Below are positions 5,011 through 27,583 of a stretch of 35,651 bases of DNA, piece after piece. Where the stretch lies: positions 1 to 35,651 of IMG/VR virus record IMGVR_UViG_3300038701_002120. One strand, written 5' to 3'. Source of the stretch: a virus. The notes under the pieces are model-generated. The model searched no databases and was not told the origin of the DNA. It worked only from the letters and a program-made list of their open reading frames with translations. Every line of letters begins with the position of its first letter. The stretch's first letter is position 1. A program made the translations under genes and the position numbers.

Positions 5011-5828
5011 AAAAGTTTATTTGTAAAGAATTAGACAACAAGCCTTTTGAAACAAAAGAGGCTTTGTTTGCTGAGTTAAAAGCTAAAGAACAAGAGATTA
5101 TTGACGCTAAAAAAAGCGAACCTAAAGAAACTCGAAGTCTTGAGCTGCCGTTACTTCAGAATTACGACTTCAAAGCTCCTTTCAAAACGGAGAAAGGTTA
5201 TTTCTACGCTATTATTAATACTACTAATATTCTCGATAGTCACGGAGATGTACACTTGCCTAAAATATGGAATAAAAGCGCAAAAGAGCAAAACGGTAAG
5301 ACGTATTATGTAGCGGATCACGAGCTTAAAATAAACGGCGTTATTGTGCGTCCTGAAAATGTAGAAATTCAACTACATAAAACCACTTTTAAAGAGTTAG
5401 GATATGATTTAGAAGGTTCTACCGTCGCTTTGGTTTTTAAAATGCCAATAGATAAAATCAAAAATAGCGCTGCAAAAGAAATTATAGACAATCAAGAGCA
5501 AGTTGAGAATTCAATTAGAATGAAATACATAAACCTAGTATTGTGTATTGACTCTTCTAACCCTGATTTAAAGAAAGAAAAAGAGAATTTCGACAAGTAT
5601 TACCCTCAAGTAGCTAATAAGGAAAAAGCCGACGAGCTTGGTTATTTCTGGGCTATTCTTGAAGGAGGAATTCACAAAGAAGGTAGCATGGTTTTATTTG
5701 GAAGCAATAGCGCAACTCATATCGTGTACCACCAAGAAGAAAAAGCCGACTCTAAGTCACTTTTACATATTGAGCCGTTCTCAGAAAACACTCAAGCAAA
5801 ACAATTATTTATTCAAAATTTAATCTAA
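5007..5828 (+). CDS. Prohead maturation protease (HK97 U35-like)
   Basis: The 273-residue protein has the fold signature of phage prohead proteases: a beta segment GYFYAIINTTNILDSHGDVH (about 67-86), where DSxGDV is the usual family motif, then the probable catalytic His in YVADHEL (about 101-107) and the probable catalytic Ser in the GGIHKEGSMVLFGSN region (about 220-234). It would cleave the N-terminal scaffold part of the capsid protein during maturation. The neighbouring capsid gene has exactly such an N-terminal coiled-coil segment. A 35-residue charged N-terminal extension is present. Confidence 0.8.
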   Translation: MKKFICKELDNKPFETKEALFAELKAKEQEIIDAKKSEPKETRSLELPLLQNYDFKAPFKTEKGYFYAIINTTNILDSHGDVHLPKIWNKSAKEQNGKTYYVADHELKINGVIVRPENVEIQLHKTTFKELGYDLEGSTVALVFKMPIDKIKNSAAKEIIDNQEQVENSIRMKYINLVLCIDSSNPDLKKEKENFDKYYPQVANKEKADELGYFWAILEGGIHKEGSMVLFGSNSATHIVYHQEEKADSKSLLHIEPFSENTQAKQLFIQNLI

Positions 5829-5833
5829 ACAAC

Positions 5834-7153
5834 ATGAAAAAAGATTTTTTAAAGTTTTTAGAAACTAAAAACATTTCAGAGGACGACTATAAAGCAAAGT
5901 CCGACGCTGAGAAAGCAGAATTGCACACAGAATTTTTCAATAACCAGTTTAAGGAATTGAAAAAATCTATTGAAGCAAAGCCAGACGCTAAGAAATTAGA
6001 AGATGCTGAAAAAGAGCTTAAAACCTTACAAGAAGGTATGAAAGATTACGTTAAGTCTTCTGACTTAGACGGTATTAAAAAGCAATTAAGCGAAGCTGAA
6101 GAGCTTATAGATCAGTTAAAAGAAAACGCTGGAACTTCTAGCAATGGAAGTGCTATCAAGAAATTATTAGACAAGAAAAAAACTGCTATTGACAAAATGG
6201 TAGAAAATAAGTCTGGTAATGTTGAAATGGTAGTAAAAGCTACTCAAACCGCTACCGATATCGGAGACAGAGACGTTTACGCAGAAATGGAAAGCGGAAC
6301 TAACAGAAAGCCTTTCAGACGCTTTAATATTGCTGCTCTGTTTAGAAGACTTCCTATCAAAAAAGAGTATTTGAAGTATAGAGAAGAAGATACGGTAACT
6401 AGAGACGCGAAAGTTGTTGTAAGGTGTGCTACTTCTACTCATAACACAAAGAAAAATTGGGTTATTAGAACTTTAGAGATTGCAAAAGTTCGTGATTTTA
6501 CTGATATCTGCGAAGATATGATGGACGATTACGATTTTGTAGAGGGAGAAATCAAAGAATTAGTTGAACAAAGTGTTGAGGCTAAAGAAGAGCAAGAGTT
6601 ATTGTCTGGTTCTGGTGACGGTTCAAACGGTACTTATTTGTCTATTGACACTATCTCTTCTGAGTTTTCTGCTGCAAATGCTTTAGCTTCTTTCGCTAAC
6701 GCTTTTCAAGCTCCTACTCTAGCAGAGTTAACGGCAGCAATGAAGTCTCAAATTGAGACATTCGGTCAAGAAAATGCCTGGAAACCTAACACAATCATTA
6801 TGAACTCTACTGACTTAGTGAAGTTTAAGCATCAAAAGAATGCTAACAATGATTATTTATTACCTCACTTCATTTCTACTAACGGAAATGTTTTAAGTGA
6901 TATGCAAATTGTAACCTCTCCTTTGATTGCTCCTAACACTTTGTATGTTATCGACACTAATCAAGGTGTTATTAGGGATAGAAAAGCTACTACGGTTTCT
7001 ATGTATTGGGAAAACAAAGATAATGCTGAGCATGAAATGGTTACAGTAAAAGCTTTAAAGCGATCTCAATTACACGTTAAAAACATTAATAGAGATGCGT
7101 TTATGAAGTGTTCTGATATCGCAGCAGCATTAACAGCAATCACTAAAGCTTAA
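5834..7153 (+). CDS. Major capsid protein (HK97 fold)
   Basis: This 439-residue protein has a Lys/Glu-rich coiled-coil N-terminus (about 1-115), which serves as an internal scaffold and is probably removed by the protease encoded upstream. An HK97-like capsid domain follows. Recognisable segments are the axial/peripheral part around EQELLSGSGDGSNGTYLSI (about 255-275), the WKPNTIIMNSTDLVKFKHQK stretch (about 315-335) and the C-terminal strand pair with VIDTNQGVIRDRK. Gene order portal, protease, capsid agrees. Clean spacing of 5 bases on each side indicates operon translation. Confidence 0.9.
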   Translation: MKKDFLKFLETKNISEDDYKAKSDAEKAELHTEFFNNQFKELKKSIEAKPDAKKLEDAEKELKTLQEGMKDYVKSSDLDGIKKQLSEAEELIDQLKENAGTSSNGSAIKKLLDKKKTAIDKMVENKSGNVEMVVKATQTATDIGDRDVYAEMESGTNRKPFRRFNIAALFRRLPIKKEYLKYREEDTVTRDAKVVVRCATSTHNTKKNWVIRTLEIAKVRDFTDICEDMMDDYDFVEGEIKELVEQSVEAKEEQELLSGSGDGSNGTYLSIDTISSEFSAANALASFANAFQAPTLAELTAAMKSQIETFGQENAWKPNTIIMNSTDLVKFKHQKNANNDYLLPHFISTNGNVLSDMQIVTSPLIAPNTLYVIDTNQGVIRDRKATTVSMYWENKDNAEHEMVTVKALKRSQLHVKNINRDAFMKCSDIAAALTAITKA

Positions 7154-7157
7154 TATC

Positions 7158-7550
7158 ATGGCAAAGAAAGGAAAAACAAAAATCAAGTTCTTGAAAGACT
7201 ATGCTCCTCGTAAAAAAGGAGAAGTTAAGGAGCTTGATACGAAACTAGCAGAATTTTATTTGAACAATGGAATTGCCGAGCTTGCCGTAAATGAATCTGA
7301 AACAGAAGATAAGTCTGGTTGTGCTGACTGCGAAAAGTCTGCTCAAGTTGCTGCTGATTTAGCAACTGCTAACGAGTCTTTGAAAGCAGCAAACGAAAGT
7401 CTTGCTACTAAAACTCAAGAGTTAGAAGAAGCTAACGGAAAAGTAACCGAGTTAGAAGGTAAATTAAAGACTTCTGAGGAAAGTTTAGTAACTGCTAACG
7501 AGTCTTTGAAGACAGCAAACGCAGCTTTGAAGAAGCGGAAGCTAAGTTAA
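7158..7550 (+). CDS. Coiled-coil head-associated protein, probably frameshifted at its end
   Basis: The N-terminal part (1-45, KIKFLKDYAPRKKGEV) resembles small phage head proteins next to the capsid gene. Residues 70-125 form a repetitive coiled coil of ANESL, EELE and similar units. The frame ends at AALKKRKLS, but the -1 frame continues from about 7528 with the same heptad character (EEAEAKLKEATKK) to a stop at 7570, just before the next gene. A single lost A after GCTTT would restore a continuous coil. It may be a real mutation or a sequencing error; I see no classic slippery heptamer for programmed slippage. Function is unknown, possibly capsid decoration or head completion. Confidence 0.7.
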   Translation: MAKKGKTKIKFLKDYAPRKKGEVKELDTKLAEFYLNNGIAELAVNESETEDKSGCADCEKSAQVAADLATANESLKAANESLATKTQELEEANGKVTELEGKLKTSEESLVTANESLKTANAALKKRKLS

Positions 7551-7576
7551 AAGAAGCAACTAAAAAGTAAAAAGCA

Positions 7577-8185
7577 ATGATAACGTCTCGCTCATTTTTT
7601 AACGGAAGCATTCAGATACCTAATGCACAAGACAAGTCTCCTAATAGCGACTTGCTTGGTAACGGCATTAAGTTAGATATGTTTATTGAGGAATTTGAGC
7701 GAGACATATTAACCGATTGTCTAGGTTATTCTCTTTACACAGAGTTTGAAGCATTTTTAGACCCTGAAAAAGAGAACGGATTGAAAGACGGCGCTCCTGG
7801 AAAGTGGAACGATTTACTAAACGGTAAAGAGTATCAATTAAACGGAGTTCCTGTAAAATGGAGAGGTTTAACTTTTAAAGAAGGTGAAAACGAAAAAAGC
7901 TTAATCGCTTATTATGTTTTCTGCGAATTTTTAAGCAATGATATTGTCAATTATAGAGGAACTGGAGTACAGAAAGAAAAGGCGAAAAACGCTGAGTCTG
8001 TTTCTGCTGATCCTTTATTTGTAAATGCGTATAGAAAATTCTTTAAAATGACTGAGTATAGTCGTTCTAATAACGGATTGAGAAGCTTATATGACTTCTT
8101 GAGAGACATGAACGATATCGACTCAGAAACTTACTCTAGCTGGTGTCCTAAAAGATTTGAAAATATTAATCTTTTTGGAATATGA
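7577..8185 (+). CDS. Head-tail connector protein, DUF6712-like
   Basis: A 202-residue protein of a type found after the capsid gene in many Bacteroidota phages. Characteristic parts are LDMFIEEFERDILTDCLGYS (about 33-52), with a helical bundle typical of gp6-like adaptors, then YVFCEFLSNDIVNYRGTGV and the C-terminal SLYDFLRDMNDI. It would form the ring that joins the portal to the tail. It overlaps the next gene by 4 bases (ATGA). Family naming is from memory and not searched. Confidence 0.65.
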   Translation: MITSRSFFNGSIQIPNAQDKSPNSDLLGNGIKLDMFIEEFERDILTDCLGYSLYTEFEAFLDPEKENGLKDGAPGKWNDLLNGKEYQLNGVPVKWRGLTFKEGENEKSLIAYYVFCEFLSNDIVNYRGTGVQKEKAKNAESVSADPLFVNAYRKFFKMTEYSRSNNGLRSLYDFLRDMNDIDSETYSSWCPKRFENINLFGI

Positions 8186-8691
8186 TAATAGTAGAAGAAA
8201 GATTAAAGGAGTTGTTTAAAACGCTCCCTCCTGTTGTAAAAAACAAGAAGAATTATGTACACGATTATAGTTTCGGTACTCAGGAAGATTTGTTGCTGTT
8301 TCTATCAAAAAGAGCAGAGGAAATCTACCCTCTTATTTGGTTGGAAACTCCAATTACAAAAACAGGCAGAGAGAACAATATTACAATCAAACTTAAATTG
8401 ATTATCGCTATTAATACCAGCTCGTCTATTAGCAATCTGCAAAGACTAGAAGAGTCTTTTAAACCAGCTTTAAACCCTATGTATAAGAACATAATCAAAG
8501 CTTTAAAAAGGTCAGGATTCACTAGAATTATTGATGAAGACAAAAACAAAAGAACTGATTATTACAATTACGGATTAAAGCAAGTAGGTAAAAAAGGAAC
8601 TGAAAACGTCGCCTCCGACATTTGGGATGCTATAAAGCTTGAATGTGAGCTAGCGCTTACGAATTGCGAACAAAAAAAAATTAATTATTAA
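8182..8691 (+). CDS. Probable neck or tail-completion protein
   Basis: The 169-residue protein mixes helices with a beta-rich centre (NNITIKLKLIIAINT, about 65-80), as in small head-closure and tail-completion proteins. The segment SKRAEEIYPLIWLETPI is often seen in this position. It lies between the connector and the major tail protein, where the tail terminator or neck proteins are coded. No catalytic motif is visible. The name is mainly from position. Confidence 0.55.
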   Translation: MIIVEERLKELFKTLPPVVKNKKNYVHDYSFGTQEDLLLFLSKRAEEIYPLIWLETPITKTGRENNITIKLKLIIAINTSSSISNLQRLEESFKPALNPMYKNIIKALKRSGFTRIIDEDKNKRTDYYNYGLKQVGKKGTENVASDIWDAIKLECELALTNCEQKKINY

Positions 8692-8702
8692 AACATACGA
8701 TC

Positions 8703-9554
8703 ATGTCAGTATATCAAGAATTGTGCGACGGTGGTGAGTCAACAGCACCGAACACAGGTTTAAAAAACCAAAACTGTACAGAAACTAAATTAGATATTCC
8801 TATTCTTTCAAATGGATTTGAGTTTGCTTCTGTTGCAGATTTCAAAACAGTTGCCTCATGGATGGCAGCAAAAGCAGCTAAAAGCATTGTGCCTTTATAC
8901 CCTGCTTATGAATTAGCGGACGCTAGTACAGAAGACACCAAGTTTGAAACAGGAAACTTCTCTAAAGTAACGGCTAAAGGTGTAGAGAAAATAGTTTACG
9001 AAAACTACGTTAGCTTACAGGCTTACGACATCTTAAAGTCTTACGAGGAAAACGAGTCTTATAGATACTTGTTTGAGTTCAACGAAGGAGAAGACTATTC
9101 TGGAGTTTTTGCTTCTGATGGAGTGAAAGTAAAAGGACGTAAAATCAAGTCTTTTACAGTAACTAGAACCAGAGCTACAAAAGATAAAATTCCTTTCGTA
9201 AAAGTTGAGATCACTTTTGACGATAAAGACGACATTAGAAATGCTGTCGTTGTTGAAAGCGATTTATCAAAAGAAGACTTAGAAGGAATCTACGGCGTAG
9301 ACGGTACTGTTTCTGGAAGCCCTACTTCTAGCGAAATTGTTGTTGAGGCTAAATTTAGCGGATCAACTATTAACGCTGAAACTATCGCTTTAGCAGATTG
9401 GAACTACACAGGAGGTACAATTACTGCTTCTGTTTTCGCTAATGGCAAATACACTCTTTCGGGTACTGGATTAACTTCTGGAACATTGTCTACGGGAGTT
9501 ATTGAACAGTCGAATATGATGTTACAGTTTTCGGACTTAGCAGTAACTATCTAG
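8703..9554 (+). CDS. Major tail protein with C-terminal Ig-like domain
   Basis: A 283-residue protein with a beta-rich tail-tube domain (about 1-200). The first 30 residues are rich in Gly, Thr and Cys and lead to a DIPILSNGFEFASV strand. The C-terminal part (about 205-283) is Ser/Thr/Gly-rich, with SGSTINAETIALADWNYTGG and GKYTLSGTGLTSGTLSTG, and resembles the Ig-like surface domains that decorate phage tail tubes. It would polymerise around the tape measure to form the tube. Position between neck genes and tape-measure chaperones is normal. Confidence 0.75.
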   Translation: MSVYQELCDGGESTAPNTGLKNQNCTETKLDIPILSNGFEFASVADFKTVASWMAAKAAKSIVPLYPAYELADASTEDTKFETGNFSKVTAKGVEKIVYENYVSLQAYDILKSYEENESYRYLFEFNEGEDYSGVFASDGVKVKGRKIKSFTVTRTRATKDKIPFVKVEITFDDKDDIRNAVVVESDLSKEDLEGIYGVDGTVSGSPTSSEIVVEAKFSGSTINAETIALADWNYTGGTITASVFANGKYTLSGTGLTSGTLSTGVIEQSNMMLQFSDLAVTI

Positions 9555-9558
9555 TAAG

Positions 9559-9750
9559 ATGGTAGAATTTAAAGGAATTCAATTCGGCGAGGGTTACAAA
9601 ATGACTCTTGCCGAATTCAAAAAAGCCTTCTCTGCGGTGCTTAAAGCTAAGAATCTTAGCACCGACGAAGTGAAGCAAGCCCATAAATTATACAATAAAG
9701 AAAATGGGAACAATATTCGACCTTCAGACGAGAGCCAAGAAGCTAACTAA
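9559..9750 (+). CDS. Small tail-assembly protein
   Basis: A 63-residue helical protein (MTLAEFKKAFSAVLKAKNLS) with an acidic C-terminus. It starts 4 bases after the major tail protein and its end overlaps the next gene by 47 bases in another frame. The position between tail tube and tape measure is where tail assembly chaperones are encoded. No clear slippery heptamer is present in the overlap, and the next gene has its own ATG, so a fusion by frameshifting is possible but unsupported. Confidence 0.55.
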   Translation: MVEFKGIQFGEGYKMTLAEFKKAFSAVLKAKNLSTDEVKQAHKLYNKENGNNIRPSDESQEAN

Positions 9751-10147
9751 AACAAGAATTAAGAATGACCTATACAGGTTTATTAAAACTCTTGAAGAAG
9801 AGTTAGCAGCTTATAATAGAGCTACACTATTTGAAGAAAGCGAAGATGTTAAAGGAAAGCCGATAGGTTTTTACTCTCCTGCAACAGAAATCATTTCTGA
9901 CGGAGAAAAAAAAGCTGGAGAGCCTTTTACTCTTAAAGACAAAGGAGATTTTTTAGACGGTTTATTTGCCAAAGTTCAAAAAGACAGCGTGTTTTTTGAT
10001 ACTAAAGACTCCAAGAAAAAAGAGGTTTTAAAAAACCTTCTATCTGAAGACATTTTCGGATTACAAAAAGAAGATTTAAACAAGGTAATAGACCGAAAGC
10101 TATTGCCTTTTTTTCAAAACTATTTCAGAAAACAACTATTAGGATGA
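9704..10147 (+). CDS. Hypothetical tail-module protein
   Basis: A 147-residue, mostly helical protein. It begins with a basic helix-rich segment (LQTRAKKLTKTRIKNDLYRFIKT without its ends), has a GFYSPATEIISDGEKKAGEPF centre and ends with a basic amphipathic helix (LPFFQNYFRKQLLG). Proteins of this type appear before the tape measure in Bacteroidota prophages. It overlaps both neighbours, by 47 and 4 bases. I do not recognise a biochemical function; tail morphogenesis is inferred from context. Confidence 0.55.
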   Translation: MGTIFDLQTRAKKLTKTRIKNDLYRFIKTLEEELAAYNRATLFEESEDVKGKPIGFYSPATEIISDGEKKAGEPFTLKDKGDFLDGLFAKVQKDSVFFDTKDSKKKEVLKNLLSEDIFGLQKEDLNKVIDRKLLPFFQNYFRKQLLG

Positions 10148-10773
10148 TTTATAGGTCAGTAGATACTATTCCAGGAAAGATATTTTTCAAGATTATTGAA
10201 ACAGGGGATTTATTGCTGTTAACTGACGAAAAAGAACCTTTAGAAGATACTGAAAAAGAGAAATTCTATACAGAACTTCAAGAGATTTGGTTAAAAATTC
10301 AAGAAGAAGACGACAAAATAGCTTCAAACAAAGAATCTGTAAAGGTAATTGATATTTCTAGCCGACTTGAAGAGTTGACTGCTAGACAAGCAGCAGTTGG
10401 ATTCGCAGTCCATGTTTTAAAATTGAATCCTGAAAACAAAGACAAAGAGCTAATTCAGTTAATAAAGGATCGTAAATATAAGTTCCATTTCGAGAATAGT
10501 AAAAACGCTAAGAGAGTTGAGAAGCAATACTTGAAGGATTTAGACAGAATTGAAAAAGAAAACAAGTCCGAAAGTATTAGGATCAAGTCACTTCAAGACC
10601 AACTTCCAGAGATAGAAGAAAATAACGAAAACATAAACTTTGACGAAGCAGTTATTAGTTACGGTGTTATTGTAGGCTCTGGATTTATAGATACTAATAA
10701 AATTACTCAGTCACAGTATAGAGCTTTGATTAAGATAGGAAACCAAAAAATGAAAGCTTTAGAAAATGAGTAA
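10144..10773 (+). CDS. Probable tail assembly chaperone
   Basis: A 209-residue, charged, helical protein directly upstream of the tape measure, whose start it overlaps by 8 bases. It has a long coiled-coil region (about 115-165, KRVEKQYLKDLDRIEKENKS) and a compact C-terminus with QSQYRALIKIGNQKMKALEN. A chaperone that coats the tape measure during tail assembly is expected here. It lacks signal peptide and membrane segments. The name is based on position and composition. Confidence 0.55.
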   Translation: MIYRSVDTIPGKIFFKIIETGDLLLLTDEKEPLEDTEKEKFYTELQEIWLKIQEEDDKIASNKESVKVIDISSRLEELTARQAAVGFAVHVLKLNPENKDKELIQLIKDRKYKFHFENSKNAKRVEKQYLKDLDRIEKENKSESIRIKSLQDQLPEIEENNENINFDEAVISYGVIVGSGFIDTNKITQSQYRALIKIGNQKMKALENE

Positions 10774-13700
10774 AGGTAAAGTTACATTCGCGGAGTCAAT
10801 AGACAAAAAAGTGTTTGATATCGGACGCTTAATAGCTGAAGGAAATAAACCTGGAATAGATAGCTTTATTGAAATGAAAAGCGCTATCGAAGCTTTGAAA
10901 ATTTCTGCTTTAGGATATGCTGAAATAGAAAAGCAATTTAAGGTTTCGGACGGGAGAAGAGAATTCGTAACAATCAAACAAAAAGAAGTTGAGTTTAGCA
11001 CTTTGGCTTCTAAAGCTGTTGTTGCTGAACAAAAAGCTAAACAATCTCTAATCGACACAGAGAGAAAAGCGATTGATTTAGCTAATAAAAAGCAAAGAGC
11101 GCAACAGAAAACAATCAAGCTAACCGAAAAAGAAAAACTAGAGACAAGAATTTTAAACAGAGGAAAGAGAGAGGCTGCAATTCTTTCTTCTAAATTATCT
11201 ACTGAATACGAAAAGCAAGCTGTAAGACTAACACAGCTTAGAAGAAGATATAAAGATGTCGCTCTGGTAGAAGGAGAGACAAGTAAGAACGCTATAAAAC
11301 TTAGAGCGGAAATACTAAAGCTAGACTCGGCTTTAAAAAGAGTTGATGCTAACGTAGGTCAATTTCAAAGAAACGTTGGAAACTACGGTAAAGCAATGGC
11401 TTCGGCTAGAAATGCAGCAAGAAACTTAGCTTCGGCTATGGGTCTTGTTGGAGGCGCTTTCTTAGTTGTTCAAGTTATAAGAGACGCTATTAAAGTTGTT
11501 CGAGACTTTGAGAAGTCAAACGCTACGCTATCGGCGATCCTTCAGGTTGAGAGAGAAGATATGCAAGGGCTTACTGACGATGCAGTTAGATTAGGAGCTA
11601 CTACTGTAAAAACCGCTAACGAAGTAACTGAGCTTCAAATCGCTTACGCTAGACTTGGTTTTGAACAAAAACAAATACTCGAATTAACAGAATCTACAAT
11701 TAGCGGTTCTATCGCTATGAATGCCGAACTAGACAAGACGGCTAATTTAGTGGGAGCTGTTGTCAATACATTTGACGATCTAAGCGCAACAGACGCGCCT
11801 AAAATAATTGATATCCTTTCGCTTTCAACTGCTAAAAGCGCATTAAACTTTCAAAAATTAGAAACAGGAATTCCGATTGTTGCAGGAGCAGCAAACGCAG
11901 CAGGAGTTCCGTTTACGAAACTTATTGCTTTAATGGGTAAGCTTTCCGATTCTGGAATAGATGTTTCCTCCTCTTCTACTGCTCTAAGAAACATTTTTAT
12001 TGAAAGTGCTAAACAAGGACTGAGTTACGAGCAGATACTTGAAAAAATTAAAAAGAGTCAAGATAAATTAACTGCTTCTAACGACGAATTCGGAAAAAGA
12101 GCTGCGGTTTCTGCTACTGTTTTAGCAAACAATATCGACAAGACAAAAGAGTTAGACGAAACGCTACAAAATGCAGGAGGAACAGCCGAGAGAATGGCTA
12201 ACAAAGAGCTTGATACTTTAGACGGAGCAATAAAGCTATTGAGATCAGCTTGGGAAGGTTATATTCTAAAACAAGACGAAGCTTCAGGAAGTTCTACAAG
12301 CCTAAAAGGTATTATTTCAGGATTAGCTAATAACTTAGATAACATTTTCTCTGTAATTGGCACAGTAACAAAAGCGTATATCGCTTATAAATTAGCCGTT
12401 CTTTTAGCTAGAGTTCAAACTTCTCTAATGAATTTACAGCTAAGAACTACTAGAAAGTCGGCTTTAGCTGCTCGATTTGGAATAAGTAAAGCTTCTCTTG
12501 CCTTCGCTCAATTCAACAAGGTCTTAAAAGCTAATATTCTAGGGTTAATTGTATTAGGGGTTACTGGCTTAATTTACCTTTTTGATAAATTAAACAAATC
12601 CATTTTAGACACCGCAGACGAATTGCATAAATCTAACGAGGAGTTTATTAAGCAAGCTGAAGAAACTCAGTCTGTAAATACAGAGCTTGGCAAGATGGTT
12701 GACAGGTACGAAGTACTGAAAAACAAAACCAAACTTAACAGTAAGGAGCAAAAAGAGCTAAACGAGATCGTAAAAAAGATTGCTAAAACTGTTCCTGGAG
12801 CAGTTACCGAGATAAATAAATACGGTGACGCACTCGAAATAAATACCGAAAAGACTAGAGATTACATTGCTAAACAAAATGAAGTTAGCAAGCTTCAGGC
12901 TGAAGTAAATATTGACAATCAAAGAAAGGCTTTAAAGGAGCTAAAAAACGAGCAAGAAGCATTCAATAGAGTTTCTGAAGACTCAACAGGTACGTTTATC
13001 AAAGGTTTCGGAGTTATTGCAAAAACAAACGGCGCTCTAGTTAAAATTACTACTCAATTTTCTAAAACTGGAAAGGCTAGGTTTGTAGAAACCAAACTTA
13101 CAAAAGCACAAGTTCTCGAGTACAAAAATTATCAATTAGCTCTTGAGCAAAAAATACTAACAGCCGAAAAAGATATTCAAACGAACGAAGATTTAATTGC
13201 CTCAATAACTGGAGAAAAGAACGCGAGACAATTAGCTACGGAAGCAAACGAAAAAGCAATCAAAGAAGCTGAGGCTTTACGAGCAAAAAAGGAAGCTGAA
13301 ATTAGAAGCGTTGAGAATCTAAAAGAAAAAATAAAAACGCTTAGAGCTGAGCAGGAAGGTCTCACTTTGTCAGATAAAAAAAGGTCTGTTGAGATCAATA
13401 AACTAATCAAGCTTTATCAAAAAGAAATTGATAAGATATTAGGTGTAGTGAAAGCTAACCGAAGCGCTGCTAAAGCTGCTAAAGAACGAGAAGCTAAAAG
13501 AAAGAAGTTAATTCAAGACTCTTTCAATTTAGAGAGTTTCGTTTTGAAGCAAAAAATTAAGCTCCTGGAAGAAGACGCTAAGAACGAGAGAAAATCTTTT
13601 AAAGAGAGAGAGCAAGCTATCGTTAAAGCAAGTGAATTAGAACTTGACTTAGCTTTAGAAACCGCTATTACAAAGCTTTTACTAAAACAGGACTTTTCAA

Positions 13701-23333: not shown

Positions 23334-23445
23334 TTTAATAAACCAATCGCGTCCTAAACGTTTTAGACTTTAGATTTTCATAGTTGATTATCAGTTATTT
23401 ACAATTAAAAATGATCTTTTTCAAAAACAAACCCCTAATATTCTT

Positions 23446-23582
23446 TAAAATTACTGTTAGCTGTCCTAAACGTTTATAGCTTACTATTTAATGGATTTTA
23501 CAGCCTATAACTTGTGTTTATTGAAAAGAATCGTGTTCTATTTTTAAATTAATCGTTCTAAAATTACTGATGCTGTCCTAAA
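23446..23582 (+). repeat. Direct repeat pair in the non-coding region
   Basis: Copies at 23446-23470 and 23559-23582 share TAAAATTACTG and GCTGTCCTAAA, separated by 3 and 2 bases. Each ends in the GTCCTAAA element. Confidence 0.7.
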
Positions 23583-23610
23583 TAATTTTTCAAAATCATT
23601 TATTTAGGAC
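23575..23610. repeat. 11-bp inverted repeat related to the late operator
   Basis: GTCCTAAATAA and TTATTTAGGAC are separated by 14 nt. Each half differs by one base from the half-site of the two late palindromes, but the halves face outward with a longer spacer. No T-run follows, so it is unlikely to be a terminator. Confidence 0.6.
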
Positions 23611-23639
23611 GGGATTGTTAATAAACCTATGTTAATTTC

Positions 23640-23675
23640 TGCGGAAATACGCACTTTAAAGTGCGGAAATACGCA
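23640..23675. promoter_or_regulatory. Twin operator-like dyads upstream of the cargo operon
   Basis: Two identical dyads TGCG-GAAATA-CGCA lie 22 bp apart. Between them is a perfect 14-bp palindrome GCACTTTAAAGTGC. The 10-mer AAATACGCAC found here also occurs, on the opposite strand, at 27546-27555 in the repressor-early gene spacer, so the phage repressor may bind both places. Confidence 0.6.
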
Positions 23676-23712
23676 TGGCTATTTAGTTTTTTTAACGTTC
23701 TTTTGTGTAAAT

Positions 23713-23803
23713 TTTAAGGATTAAAATTTAAAATTCAAGTACAATTACCTGCTTTATTTGGCTATTTTTTTGTAATTTGATGGTTTATTTTTTAATCCTT
23801 AAA
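23713..23803. repeat. 14-bp inverted repeat flanking the cargo-operon leader
   Basis: TTTAAGGATTAAAA (23713-23726) and TTTTAATCCTTAAA (23790-23803) are perfect inverted copies, 63 bp apart. The second arm ends 10 bases before the ATG at 23814. A TAATTTG -7-like string lies between. In RNA the pair could close a long stem-loop over the leader. Confidence 0.6.
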
Positions 23804-23813
23804 TCTTAAAATT

Positions 23814-23933
23814 ATGCAAGAAGAAATTTTAGAAAAAATGTATTTAATGCCAGACCCAGACGACGACGGAACTACTGATCCAGACGAAGAAGAGACTGGA
23901 GGAGAAAGCGGAGTGACTGGTGGCGGCAACTAA
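23814..23933 (+). CDS. Tiny acidic Gly-rich peptide, first gene of cargo operon
   Basis: A 39-residue ORF (starts MQEEILEKMY) is extremely acidic, with PDPDDDGTTDPDEEE in the middle and a Gly-rich end GVTGGGN. It has a clear leader with inverted repeats in front and overlaps the following membrane-protein gene by 14 bases. It could be a leader peptide for translational coupling, or a functional small partner of the membrane protein. It resembles no family I know. The Asp/Gly pattern is loosely like a calcium loop. Confidence 0.5.
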   Translation: MQEEILEKMYLMPDPDDDGTTDPDEEETGGESGVTGGGN

Positions 23934-24672
23934 AGTCAAAATACAAAGTATAATAACATTCATAGTAACATTATCTTTTGTTACTATGTTTGTTTTTAGT
24001 TTCTTATGGGATCGATACTCTCCAGAGTTAAAAGCTCATCAGAAAACGTATCGTCCTATAATAAAAAAAAGAGATTCTACTTTTGATTATTCTATTGCTA
24101 ACAGGCTTAAAGAGAATATTTCCGAAGATGAAAAAGCTTTTTTGTTATCCCTATTAGCTGACAAAGAAAAATCAAAAAAGAGTTTACAAGCCTACACCAA
24201 AAAGAAAAGAGAATTGCAAAAATCTCAGAAGTTTCTCGGTAGGTCTAATTTTAAATTTTGGTTCGATCAATTTGGAAAAGAATTAAAGAGTCTGTTCTTT
24301 GCTGCATTGCTATTATTGGCTTACTACCGATACAAGCTCCCTAAACCTTTTAAGTGGGCTGGTGTTATGGGAATATCAGCTAGCTTATTTGTGTTTTATT
24401 TCCTAATTTTCAAGACCGCAGAGGACTTTTATGACAATACTTATATTTTGTTTGAAGTTGCTTTGTCAGGTATTGCAGGAATATTAGCTGTTGAGGTTGG
24501 TAGATATCTGATAAAGCGCCAAAGTTTCTTTAAAACAATTCAATCGTTATTTACATTTATTAATGAAGAAGCTGAGCAGGAAGATTATGTAAAAGAAGAG
24601 AAAAAAAGCAAATTCAGAAAAAGAAGAGTAGAATTATTACACGACGCTGTTGGGATAAAAGACAAAGATTAA
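23920..24672 (+). CDS. Four-span membrane protein of unknown function (cargo)
   Basis: A 250-residue protein starting at GTG, inside the preceding small ORF; the next Met is inside the first membrane span, so GTG fits. Predicted membrane spans are about 10-30, 124-140, 147-166 and 175-196. A large loop of about 90 residues rich in Lys and Glu (31-120) separates span 1 from the others, and the C-terminal 50 residues are highly charged. I do not recognise the family. Position between lysis genes and attP is a classic cargo site, so superinfection exclusion, defence or lysogenic conversion are candidate roles, unproven. Confidence 0.65.
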   Translation: MAATKVKIQSIITFIVTLSFVTMFVFSFLWDRYSPELKAHQKTYRPIIKKRDSTFDYSIANRLKENISEDEKAFLLSLLADKEKSKKSLQAYTKKKRELQKSQKFLGRSNFKFWFDQFGKELKSLFFAALLLLAYYRYKLPKPFKWAGVMGISASLFVFYFLIFKTAEDFYDNTYILFEVALSGIAGILAVEVGRYLIKRQSFFKTIQSLFTFINEEAEQEDYVKEEKKSKFRKRRVELLHDAVGIKDKD

Positions 24673-24995
24673 TGAAAAACAGAAAAAGGAAATTACAGAA
24701 AAATTTAGACAAAATTCAAAAGTCAGGTTTTTTGTCTGAATCATCAATGAAGGTTTATAAAGATGATTTAAAACACATTACCATTGTTTTAAATGAAAAA
24801 CAAGAAATCTTGAAAGTTGAAGAGGAAAGTAGTAGAGAAAATAAAATTTCAATATTCTTTCTCTCTAAGGAAAAACTATCAAAAGAGAACCTTAAAAAAC
24901 TTATCAAAGACATTACCCCCAAATTTATTGAGGAATGGAGATGTTACTCCTACCCCAACTCTTCTAATTATCAGCGAATAGAAGTTTACTACTAA
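24672..24995 (+). CDS. Small soluble protein of the cargo operon
   Basis: A 107-residue protein overlaps the membrane protein gene by one base (TAATG), so the two are probably made together. The N-terminus is very basic (MKNRKRKLQKNLDKIQKS), followed by an alternating helix/strand region (HITIVLNEKQEILKVEEE, ISIFFLSKEKLS) and an aromatic C-terminus. It has no membrane span. I know no family match. It ends convergently with the integrase gene with a 4-base overlap and no terminator between. Confidence 0.6.
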   Translation: MKNRKRKLQKNLDKIQKSGFLSESSMKVYKDDLKHITIVLNEKQEILKVEEESSRENKISIFFLSKEKLSKENLKKLIKDITPKFIEEWRCYSYPNSSNYQRIEVYY

Positions 24996-26128
24996 CCTTT
25001 TAGCATTTCGCTATAATCTTCAGGTAATTCTAAATCATTCACAGTAATATAATTATTTATTGCATTACTGCTATGTCCTGTTATTACAGATAGTTTCTCT
25101 ATTGACTCTTTTTTTGAAAGCTTCTTTCTTAATTCAAGATATAGTTTTGTTATGAAAGTGTGTTTGAATGAATAAAGTTTTAAGCTACTATCTATACCAT
25201 GCTTCTCTCTAAACTTCTTAAATAAATCTGTGTAGTGCTGCCTTTTGTTTTGATCCTTCATTAAGTGCCAATCTGGGTTATTGGACTTAAACACAAATCC
25301 TTTCTTATCTTTTACAAATTTTTTAACCCTATCCAAAATCAACTCTGGAATTATCTTTGTTTTTCTAGCATCTGTTTTGGTTTCTACCGATATAGTATTA
25401 GCTTTAAAATCGAAATCAGCGTCTTTCATCCTAACTATTTCAATAGGTCTCCAGAACATATAAGACACAAAATAAATATACATTAACAATGTTTCATTCT
25501 CTTCTTCCAGTTTCTTTTCTATGTCGAGAATTTGCTTACCTGTGTATATTTTTGCTTTCTTTTTTTGAACTTTTCTAACTCTAAGCTCAGAAATAAAATT
25601 GAAATCTATGTAGTTAGCGTCCGAAAGGATAACAAAAATTGAATCAAGGGCAGTTCTAGTATTGTTTCTATTTTTAGCTCCTTTAAAAGTATCTAAATAT
25701 GTAGATACGTGCGTTTTTGTAATATTCTTCATTGACTTTTCGAGAAGTCCTTTCTCCTGGAGAAACTTCTTAAACCTAAATATCCTACTTTTATAATCTG
25801 ATAATGTCGTTCCTTTTAATTCATTTTTCTTTACAGACCAAGCGTAATCAATACAGCTACCAGCTTGAAACTCTATTTCAATAGATTCACTTTCGTAAGG
25901 ATTGTGATTATTTCTAAGCATTTCAGACAAAGCTTCTCTTAAAAAATTAAAATGAAGCAGTCTCTCCTTCTTAGTTTTATACTTCTGGTTTATCTTTAAA
26001 TAGATTGGAGATTGCCTAGTCATTATTCCCGTGACAGGATTTAAAAACGAATAATACACATACCACCTTTTAGACAAATCAAAGTTTTTGCCACCGTGAT
26101 AAATTTTAGGCTCTGTGTATTTCTTCAT
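24992..26128 (-). CDS. int: Tyrosine integrase
   Basis: Site-specific recombinase joining phage and host DNA. Numbered from the ATG at 26128 it has 378 residues, with an N-terminal arm-binding region (MKKYTEPKIYHGG), a SAM-like core-binding domain (about 90-180) and a C-terminal catalytic domain. The catalytic Arg is in MFWRPIEIVR, the second box reads SFKHTFITKLY (KHT in place of the common RHT), then TGHSS, and the nucleophile Tyr is in NNYITVND. Longer frames begin at 26185 or 26215, but they would run through the arm-type repeats, so 26128 is preferred. The gene borders attP. Confidence 0.88.
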   Translation of the reverse strand: MKKYTEPKIYHGGKNFDLSKRWYVYYSFLNPVTGIMTRQSPIYLKINQKYKTKKERLLHFNFLREALSEMLRNNHNPYESESIEIEFQAGSCIDYAWSVKKNELKGTTLSDYKSRIFRFKKFLQEKGLLEKSMKNITKTHVSTYLDTFKGAKNRNNTRTALDSIFVILSDANYIDFNFISELRVRKVQKKKAKIYTGKQILDIEKKLEEENETLLMYIYFVSYMFWRPIEIVRMKDADFDFKANTISVETKTDARKTKIIPELILDRVKKFVKDKKGFVFKSNNPDWHLMKDQNKRQHYTDLFKKFREKHGIDSSLKLYSFKHTFITKLYLELRKKLSKKESIEKLSVITGHSSNAINNYITVNDLELPEDYSEMLKG

Positions 26129-26134
26129 TTTGTT

Positions 26135-26157
26135 ACTGTATGCGGTTCTGTATTCGG
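26135..26157. repeat. attP arm sites, integrase side
   Basis: Two tandem copies of a CTGTATKCGG motif with a 12-bp period (ACTGTATGCGG, TTCTGTATTCGG). They mirror a second pair on the other side of the core and are the likely arm-type integrase binding sites. Confidence 0.7.
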
Positions 26158-26227
26158 TTTGCAATTTAGTAATAAAAAAACTCATTGAAATTAGCTTTAA
26201 TAAACTGACAATCAATGAGTTTTGAAG

Positions 26228-26270
26228 TAGCGGGAACTGGACTCGAACCAGTGACCTTCGGGTTATGAGG
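26228..26270 (-). other. attP: attP core: 3' half of a tRNA-Met(CAU) gene
   Basis: Read on the minus strand this is a tRNA 3' half: CTCATAA anticodon loop (anticodon CAT), CCCGA half-stem, AGGTC variable loop, T arm ACTGG-TTCGAGT-CCAGT, and acceptor TCCCGCT plus A. The 5' half is absent. Phages that integrate in tRNA genes carry such a fragment to restore the gene on insertion, so the host site is a tRNA-Met gene. Confidence 0.88.
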
Positions 26271-26294
26271 CAGAAATAAATCTACAACCCTACT

Positions 26295-26375: not shown

Positions 26376-26801
26376 TCAATTCACTCTTTTACCATCTATT
26401 GAATACACCTCTATTTCATCCATCATCTCGCTGTATAAGATTTGGTGATTACTTAAGGTTTTAGCTCCTAAAGAATTTTTACCTCTTACTTTCGCTAAAA
26501 CTCTAGTGTATGAAAAGTTTTTATCGTTATTTTTTTCAATACTCACAATGCTGTCTTGTAATTTTGAATAATTATCATAATTATTATTAGCAGAGTAAAC
26601 ACTATCCAAGTATCTCTTATTTTTATCGCTGTAAGAGTAAGCTTCTTTTATTATCACAAAATCAACAAGCTCAAAAGAACTAGGATCATGCATTGATTTT
26701 TTAAAACTAATCTTGAACTTTTTTTTCATTTCTCCTTCTTCATTATTGCATGAAGAAAACAAAAGAACTGTAATCAATAATGCTGTAATATATTTTTTCA
26801 T
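26376..26801 (-). CDS. Lipoprotein expressed with the repressor
   Basis: A 141-residue protein with a lipoprotein signal: MKKYITALLITVLLFSSC, Cys 18 as the lipidation site. The residues after Cys are NNEEGE, acidic as in Bacteroidota lipoprotein export signals, so it may reach the cell surface. The ATG at 26801 is 2 bases after the repressor stop, so both genes share one mRNA; a TTG lies in frame at 26807. The mature part has no recognised domain. Expression from the lysogen together with the repressor suggests lysogenic conversion, such as blocking superinfecting phages at the surface. This role is inference. Confidence 0.7.
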   Translation of the reverse strand: MKKYITALLITVLLFSSCNNEEGEMKKKFKISFKKSMHDPSSFELVDFVIIKEAYSYSDKNKRYLDSVYSANNNYDNYSKLQDSIVSIEKNNDKNFSYTRVLAKVRGKNSLGAKTLSNHQILYSEMMDEIEVYSIDGKRVN

Positions 26802-26803
26802 TT

Positions 26804-27502
26804 TCAATAAATTTTATCAGCTACACCTCTATTAATATCAACAACATAAAATAGTGCTGTAACATCATTTAGGCTTAGTTCAAAATCTTGATGCTCTGGA
26901 CTAGGATTCAAGGAATGGCAAGTAATTACTCCTTTTTCTACATCGTGATTAATTATTTTTTTTAGTAAAGGGTATGAGCTTTCTTGAGTAGCAATTACCC
27001 AATATGGAAACTTCTTAAACCTTAATAAACTACTCCAATAATCTCTCGATAACTCCCTACCTGTTACTATTGAATTAGGGAGAATAGAGTCGCTAAGTCC
27101 ATTATCCATACTATTACCATTGACCCTAAAGGCAAGATATTTACCTCTATGTATTTCATTAACTACAATAGAGTGAAATTCTGTTATATCTGCTAAAAAC
27201 TCTGCGTCAGCATATTTATCTACAAAACCTGCTTGTAGGTTAATTTCTAACAACGGTACTTTCATCATGTATAATCCATTTCCTAATTCTAAAAAAGAAT
27301 TCCCGTTGTTATTTTCAATCTTACCACCTGCACTTTGTGTATTTAAAATTAAATTCAGCAATAAAAGCGCACTTTGTGATATATTACGCTCTCCAGACTC
27401 CCAAGATTGAACAGCTCTCACCTTAACACCGAGCATTTCAGCGAATTGTGACTGTGTCAATTTAAGTTTTTCTCTATTTTTCTTTATATCTAACTTATTC
27501 AT
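26804..27502 (-). CDS. CI/LexA-like phage repressor (HTH + S24 peptidase)
   Basis: The 232-residue protein has a classic HTH_3 DNA-binding domain (about 3-55, LTQSQFAEMLGVKVRAVQSW) and a C-terminal S24 peptidase domain. The probable self-cleavage site is Ala91-Gly92 in NLQAGFV, the nucleophile Ser131 in NGNSMDNG, and the general base Lys181 or Lys182 in PLLKKI. It should hold lytic genes off until RecA-stimulated self-cleavage during DNA damage. The start at 27502 puts the HTH at the N-terminus; ATG 27508 and a longer frame from 27538 are possible. It is divergent from the early operon and co-transcribed with the lipoprotein. Confidence 0.85.
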   Translation of the reverse strand: MNKLDIKKNREKLKLTQSQFAEMLGVKVRAVQSWESGERNISQSALLLLNLILNTQSAGGKIENNNGNSFLELGNGLYMMKVPLLEINLQAGFVDKYADAEFLADITEFHSIVVNEIHRGKYLAFRVNGNSMDNGLSDSILPNSIVTGRELSRDYWSSLLRFKKFPYWVIATQESSYPLLKKIINHDVEKGVITCHSLNPSPEHQDFELSLNDVTALFYVVDINRGVADKIY

Positions 27503-27526
27503 AATCATTGGGTTACAATAAATAAT

Positions 27527-27534
27527 TAAATATA
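27527..27534 (-). promoter_or_regulatory. Possible -7 box of the repressor promoter
   Basis: On the minus strand TATATTTA resembles TAnnTTTG. No good TTTG is seen at the -33 distance, so the promoter would be weak or activated. It lies 24 bases before the repressor start. Confidence 0.4.
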
Positions 27535-27544
27535 ACACGTTTTT

Positions 27545-27583
27545 TGTGCGTATTTATTTGTTTTAATTACACAATGTGCATAT
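27545..27583 (+). promoter_or_regulatory. Candidate repressor operators in the switch region
   Basis: TGTGCGTAT (27545-27553) and TGTGCATAT (27575-27583) are direct repeats 30 bp apart, about three helical turns. The second overlaps the early -7 box, so a bound repressor would block it. The first contains the 10-mer GTGCGTATTT, whose reverse complement occurs upstream of the cargo operon. Confidence 0.55.

Follow-up and report, generated by a model that had tools for sequence, protein, structure and literature searches.

A phage operon of a small acidic peptide, a membrane protein and a soluble protein: a possible superinfection-exclusion module from a gene-set family found in Flavobacteriaceae

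In the Rz/Rz1 spanins, a small lipoprotein gene overlaps a membrane-protein gene out of frame. Ltp is a superinfection-exclusion lipoprotein of the Streptococcus thermophilus phage TP-J34, and its gene adjoins the integrase in the lysogeny module (PMC3952083). SieA of Salmonella phage P22 is an inner-membrane protein that blocks DNA injection (PMC10883804). In Bacteroidetes, the export signal of surface lipoproteins is K-(D/E)2 or Q-A-(D/E)2 (PMC5080379). The phage operon analyzed here belongs, by sequence comparison, to a previously undescribed, widespread family of membrane and lipoprotein gene sets, of which no published account was found in the open-access literature. We tentatively interpret it as a lysogeny-linked envelope module that most likely acts in superinfection exclusion, a reading to which we give somewhat less than even confidence.

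The window, i.e., the whole stretch of DNA analyzed, corresponds to one complete IMG/VR virus record (35,651 bases). The tail, capsid, and terminase proteins encoded in it are similar to those of flavobacterial siphoviruses, for example, Tenacibaculum phage JQ, and since an integrase and an HTH repressor are present, the phage, a siphovirus of marine flavobacteria, is temperate. Three overlapping ORFs (23814-24995) are flanked by the lysis genes on one side and the integrase on the other. The initial annotation regarded them as one unit with its own leader, and the ORFs are as it described: gene 2 shares 14 nt with gene 1, in the +1 frame, gene 3 shares 1 nt with gene 2, and a 480-bp leader ahead of gene 1 separates the operon from the lysis genes. 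Gene 3 is arranged tail-to-tail with the integrase, which is thus the convergent neighbor of the operon, and the repressor is found 1.8 kb beyond. Between integrase and repressor lies a further gene for a small lipoprotein (143 aa; 26376-26807, minus strand), which is possibly also expressed in lysogeny. The positions of the features are collected in Table 1.

Table 1. Features of the three-gene operon and its surroundings in the window.
Feature	Position	Strand	Basis and remarks
Strong hairpin, 13-bp stem	23573..23612	+	z -5.4; none of 200 shuffles as stable; between lysis operon and unit
Two copies of TGCGGAAATACGCA	23640-23653, 23662-23675 (feature 23640..23676)		Leader; putative repressor operator
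Long AT-rich inverted repeat	23708..23808	+	z -4.7; ends at gene 1 start
Gene 1, 39-aa acidic peptide	23814..23933	+	ORF; alignment with seven lipoprotein relatives
Gene 2, 250-aa membrane protein, four predicted spans	23920..24672	+	Starts with GTG inside the gene 1 ORF, +1 frame
Gene 3, 107-aa small soluble protein	24672..24995	+	ORF; abuts gene 2 by TAATG
Tyrosine integrase	24992..26215	-	Pfam Phage_integrase and PHROG integrase; convergent with gene 3; context, outside the module
Phage repressor, HTH_3 (Peptidase_S24 match weak)	26804..27538	-	Pfam; context, likely regulator
Third and only other AAATACGCAY copy	27546..27555	-	Intergenic, repressor/early genes

A stretch at ~26229-26271, immediately 5' of the integrase and similar to the 3' half of tRNA-Met(CAU), is likely to be the attP core, and the operon, which lies across the integrase from it, would therefore sit at a prophage end. 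The operon had been placed beside attP; it does occupy the interval from the lysis genes to the integrase, but the putative att core is beyond the integrase and not directly adjacent. Near the left end of the window there is a tRNA gene (444-529) with an ambiguous anticodon. The close phage relatives L006, with a terminase 84% identical, and L012 do not contain the module, which suggests that it was recently gained or lost, although the records of these two phages may be incomplete. In the closest phage relative (G001), contig L072 encodes, at its end past a tRNA-like site (positions 1-1207), small peptides that are rich in Cys and have GG-type leaders; they look like Bacteroidota lanthipeptide precursors, and this segment is probably host DNA.

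Gene 2 had been annotated as a four-span protein with a long charged loop. Three spans are clear by hydropathy (residues 11-29, 146-164, and 176-194), whereas the fourth, near residues 120-140, is weaker and is read from the sequence. The charged, helical loop between spans 1 and 2 (residues ~35-110) is probably periplasmic. Gene 2 aligns with its relatives through all spans and matches the family profile. AlphaFold models of gene 2 (pLDDT 55, two sequences) and gene 3 (pLDDT 60, single sequence) were poor. A match of gene 2 to DUF2207_C (E 0.001, below its cut-off) was dropped, being found with only one of 12 relatives, olfactory-receptor matches among PDB sequences (E 0.04) were discarded as membrane-protein noise, and the Pfam matches of gene 3 (Chordopox_G3, Spa1_C, and others; E > 0.05) were dismissed as chance.

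The 39-aa product of gene 1 has a net charge of -12, and its sequence (MQEEILEKMYLMPDPDDDGTTDPDEEE...) can be aligned to the acidic lipoprotein tails found in the relatives, e.g., that of the phage contig L147 (VVDPDDDGTIDDGNTDEEY), with which it shares a DPDDDGT motif. In the relatives, the lipoproteins are 43 to 72 aa long, or ~26 to 54 residues when mature, with a lipobox, kept in most of them, and an acidic tail rich in D, G, and P. The first 12 residues after the lipobox cysteine have a negative net charge in all 34 lipoprotein relatives, which is compatible with Bacteroidetes surface export. The window copy contains neither signal peptide nor lipobox, and its reading frame is closed upstream. 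Of the initial description, an acidic Gly-rich peptide, the acidity stands, but the alignment places the peptide as a lipoprotein-family tail and not in a Gly-rich family of its own. Gene 1 of the window corresponds to the acidic tail of the family's small lipoprotein after loss of the signal peptide and is either a relic that persists because it couples translation or a soluble form of the protein; because the signal peptide is lost, it may serve only to couple translation to gene 2.

Gene 3 proteins have in common the N-terminal motif GFLxxxxxxxYxxDL. They are 47 to 98 aa in the relatives, and the window copy is longer in its C-terminal half. An 11-member gene 3 profile from which the window was left out detected the window protein with an E-value of 8.8e-5, better than all 2000 shuffles; with a broader, 30-member profile the window protein was not significant.

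Single-protein scans for close relatives in IMG/VR and GTDB contigs gave no match, nor did tblastn against 50,697 phage records or plasmids. When the single window gene 2 protein was searched against 397 whole Flavobacteriaceae genomes, 14 genomes matched at E <= 0.01 (best 3e-23), and a 12-member gene 2 profile identified relatives in 26 of the 397. Strong matches in a class-level sample of 395 genomes were confined to three genomes, all already in the family sample, and a phylum sample contributed one additional strong genome, G1064, with four gene 2 copies. Weak phylum-wide matches (E 1e-5 to 1e-3) were treated as noise. The module is also carried by L147. The three genes had originally been matched to no known family, and this agrees with the absence of convincing Pfam or PHROGs matches for any of them; the 12 gene 2 relatives likewise had no convincing match in Pfam, NCBIfam, PHROGs, or PADLOC, and neither did their profile among PDB sequences.

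The layout that recurs in the relatives is a lipoprotein gene, then a four-span membrane protein gene in the +1 frame with its start inside the 3' part of the lipoprotein gene, then usually a small soluble protein gene. Among 42 distinct relatives, 36 have a lipobox ORF ahead of gene 2, compared with 6 of 249 control ORFs, and a small ORF follows gene 2 in 31 of 42 distinct copies (55 of 249 for the control ORFs); gene 3 is absent from about a quarter of copies. The offset is +1 in 36 of 37 lipoprotein/gene 2 pairs, the exception being the 3' piece of a frameshifted copy. The genome G1064 was fetched after the rule had been stated and served as an unseen test: all four copies have the lipoprotein with the +1 overlap, and three also have gene 3. 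The initial annotation had named a lack of co-occurrence of the three genes as one ground for refuting its reading; they do travel together in many other genomes, and the same gene order is found in the relatives examined with controls and in the four G1064 copies. The homology searches that it had proposed recovered relatives in Flavobacteriaceae genomes and no homolog that serves in virion structure or lysis, the other ground it had given.

Fusion of the gene 1 and gene 2 products by programmed frameshifting would be compatible with the constant +1 offset. A nested gene 2 start is the simpler explanation and was preferred, because an ATG in the gene 2 frame is present inside gene 1 in nearly all relatives; this candidate start is often in a GATGA (Asp-Glu) codon pair. 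For all three genes, dN is less than dS in every pair compared, and this, together with the preserved order and overlap, indicates that the unit is real coding DNA. For the pair L158 and L159, pS is 0.03 in gene 1 and 0.33 in gene 2, and a low gene 1 value is expected if gene 1 is doubly coding.

Multiple copies are found in some genomes. In G417, one HTH gene is accompanied by a tandem series of five intact gene 2 copies (L105, array at 5577-11738, with a broken gene 2 copy at its left end). One copy pair is identical; otherwise the membrane parts are 19 to 43% identical, the last ~45 residues 81 to 100%, and the gene 3 copies are almost identical. A variable membrane part with a constant, presumably cytoplasmic tail would be expected of a recognizer under diversifying pressure; 3' gene conversion would also produce this pattern. 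G381 has at least six copies, several with an HTH gene of their own. At ~20 loci in the relatives an HTH gene of opposite orientation runs up to gene 3 or close to it, and a set of these genes matches the Phage_CI_repr, HTH_3, HTH_19, and RstR models; the window has no such gene directly behind gene 3.

Many of the relatives belong to prophages, and other copies stand alone, in tandem, or on chromosomes. Names of neighboring genes were assigned by eye except where Pfam was run. An integrase is upstream of L108, L150, L163, and L171, and an integrase-like gene, recognized by eye without a Pfam match, is near L172. L107 and L109 are accompanied by early-phage genes with a DUF3799 nuclease nearby, and L147 by an S49-type head protease. 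Several prophage loci are ordered integrase, divergent gene, module, and repressor, the divergent gene of L147 encoding a DUF4468 protein. In four genomes the module occupies a chromosomal site adjoining hisS (L157, L158, L159, and L166). L162 and L191 adjoin rimP-nusA and have a response regulator upstream, and a like regulator precedes L192 and L193; in these four loci, from two genomes, the NarL/LuxR-type regulator is directly upstream of the module. The chromosomal, vertically kept, or regulator-linked copies suggest a host role. The initial label of cargo operon was thus right as to the type of operon, but phage cargo is only a partial account, because part of the family consists of stand-alone copies or of chromosomal genes that are inherited vertically.

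In the window, the pattern AAATACGCAY occurs three times, at 23645 and 23667 in the leader and at 27546, with 0.12 occurrences expected and three reached in none of 100 shuffles. The pattern was picked after the leader repeat had been seen, and with one mismatch allowed the excess in the window is not significant; control of the operon by the prophage repressor, to which the shared 10-mer points, is therefore a lead rather than proof. In the leader region that separates the lysis genes from the operon (23351-23587), GTCCTAAACGTTT is present at 23351 and 23463 and as a diverged copy at 23575, at a spacing of exactly 112 nt.

The initial annotation had suggested an exclusion or defense system or a lysogenic-conversion trait, all of which are candidate roles. 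We infer superinfection exclusion from position, repressor linkage, and mosaic evolution. The module consists of a short acidic-tailed lipoprotein, a four-span inner-membrane protein, and a small soluble protein. In prophages it is located in the lysogeny region, is probably switched by the prophage repressor, and would act in the envelope of the lysogen to stop DNA delivery by other phages. The gene 2 membrane protein would be the variable, target-recognizing part, the lipoprotein its outer or surface partner, and gene 3 would act on the gene 2 tail, which is constant and presumably cytoplasmic. As for superinfection-exclusion traits, the module is encoded in prophage lysogeny regions. Exclusion is favored by the gene order kept in relatives with controls, by the prophage and integrated-element contexts, several of them with the order integrase, module, repressor, by the convergent repressor-type HTH genes, by the leader 10-mer that is also in the repressor intergenic region, by the tandem array with its variable membrane part and constant tail, by the patchy presence among close phage relatives, and by Ltp and SieA as functional or positional analogs. 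Against it are the lack of a homolog of known function, the loss of gene 3 from a share of the copies, the post hoc choice of the operator 10-mer, and the window copy without a lipoprotein signal. The chromosomal copies behind response regulators favor a broader envelope or signaling role and hold our confidence in exclusion below even.

Abortive infection or another membrane-disrupting defense, in which the four-span protein would be a gated effector that depolarizes the membrane once the small proteins detect infection, is rather unlikely. Such a system would fit a small multigene unit that combines a multispan protein with a cytosolic partner and in many cases has an HTH regulator of its own, as well as the stand-alone cassettes, the multiple copies, and the variable membrane part. 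However, none of the 12 gene 2 relatives matches a PADLOC defense-system model and only one a SLATT model, weakly (E 0.012); no sensor or nuclease is recognizable, and a lipoprotein is unusual in such systems. Less probable again is a module that alters or senses the envelope for the benefit of the host (lysogenic conversion) and not for phage defense. The response regulators at four loci and the hisS site conserved in four genomes, where purifying selection is strong, argue for it, whereas the multiple diverging and tandem copies, the placement in prophages and islands, and the repressor-type HTH partners argue against it.

We consider a peptide/immunity or toxin-antitoxin-like arrangement very unlikely; in it, gene 1 would encode a peptide for export and gene 2 the matching immunity or partner protein. 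A small exported peptide encoded beside a membrane protein, itself small, and an HTH protein would resemble bacteriocin or toxin-antitoxin layouts, and some of the HTH genes score against antitoxin models; but the lipobox is kept in most relatives, no processing or transporter gene lies alongside, and the window copy has no export signal. A lysis accessory (holin or spanin pair), suggested by the adjoining lysis region, the out-of-frame lipoprotein/membrane gene overlap as in Rz/Rz1, and a weak match of one relative to the holin family PF16079 (E 0.0096), is scarcely credible, since relatives are in prophage repressor regions or at chromosomal sites away from lysis genes, a strong hairpin intervenes between unit and lysis operon, and close phage relatives have no such unit.

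Superinfection exclusion thus remains our preferred reading of the operon. A wider view, possible though doubtful, is that the family constitutes a new Flavobacteriaceae-centered trans-envelope system in prophages, islands, and chromosomes, where a nested, out-of-frame lipoprotein, a recombining four-span recognizer whose tail is constant, and a cytosolic partner would sense or block phage entry. Prophage-encoded defense and exclusion are little charted in Bacteroidota, and the family offers concrete targets: it can be recognized from sequence by the nested +1 overlap and fixed order, is present in ~6 to 7% of sampled Flavobacteriaceae genomes, and diversifies in the manner of an arms-race gene.

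Compared with the described systems, the operon resembles Ltp in position, as a prophage lipoprotein gene in the lysogeny module, beside the integrase and before the repressor genes; Ltp, however, is a single-gene, 142-aa repeat-domain protein of a Gram-positive host, with no four-span partner described (PMC3952083). SieA, compared by description, is likewise encoded by a prophage, is located in the inner membrane, and falls into sequence types that diverge strongly, and action at DNA entry is also proposed for the operon; SieA is, however, a single gene without lipoprotein or soluble partner, from another host phylum (PMC10883804). The relatives resemble Bacteroidetes surface lipoproteins in being acidic just behind the lipobox cysteine, as judged by net charge and not by the strict motif, and differ in their short mature length and, in the window copy, in the missing lipobox (PMC5080379).

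With the Rz/Rz1 spanins, the operon shares an out-of-frame overlap of lipoprotein and membrane-protein genes and a coil-rich loop; the gene order is different, the operon has four predicted spans, and its relatives are outside lysis cassettes.
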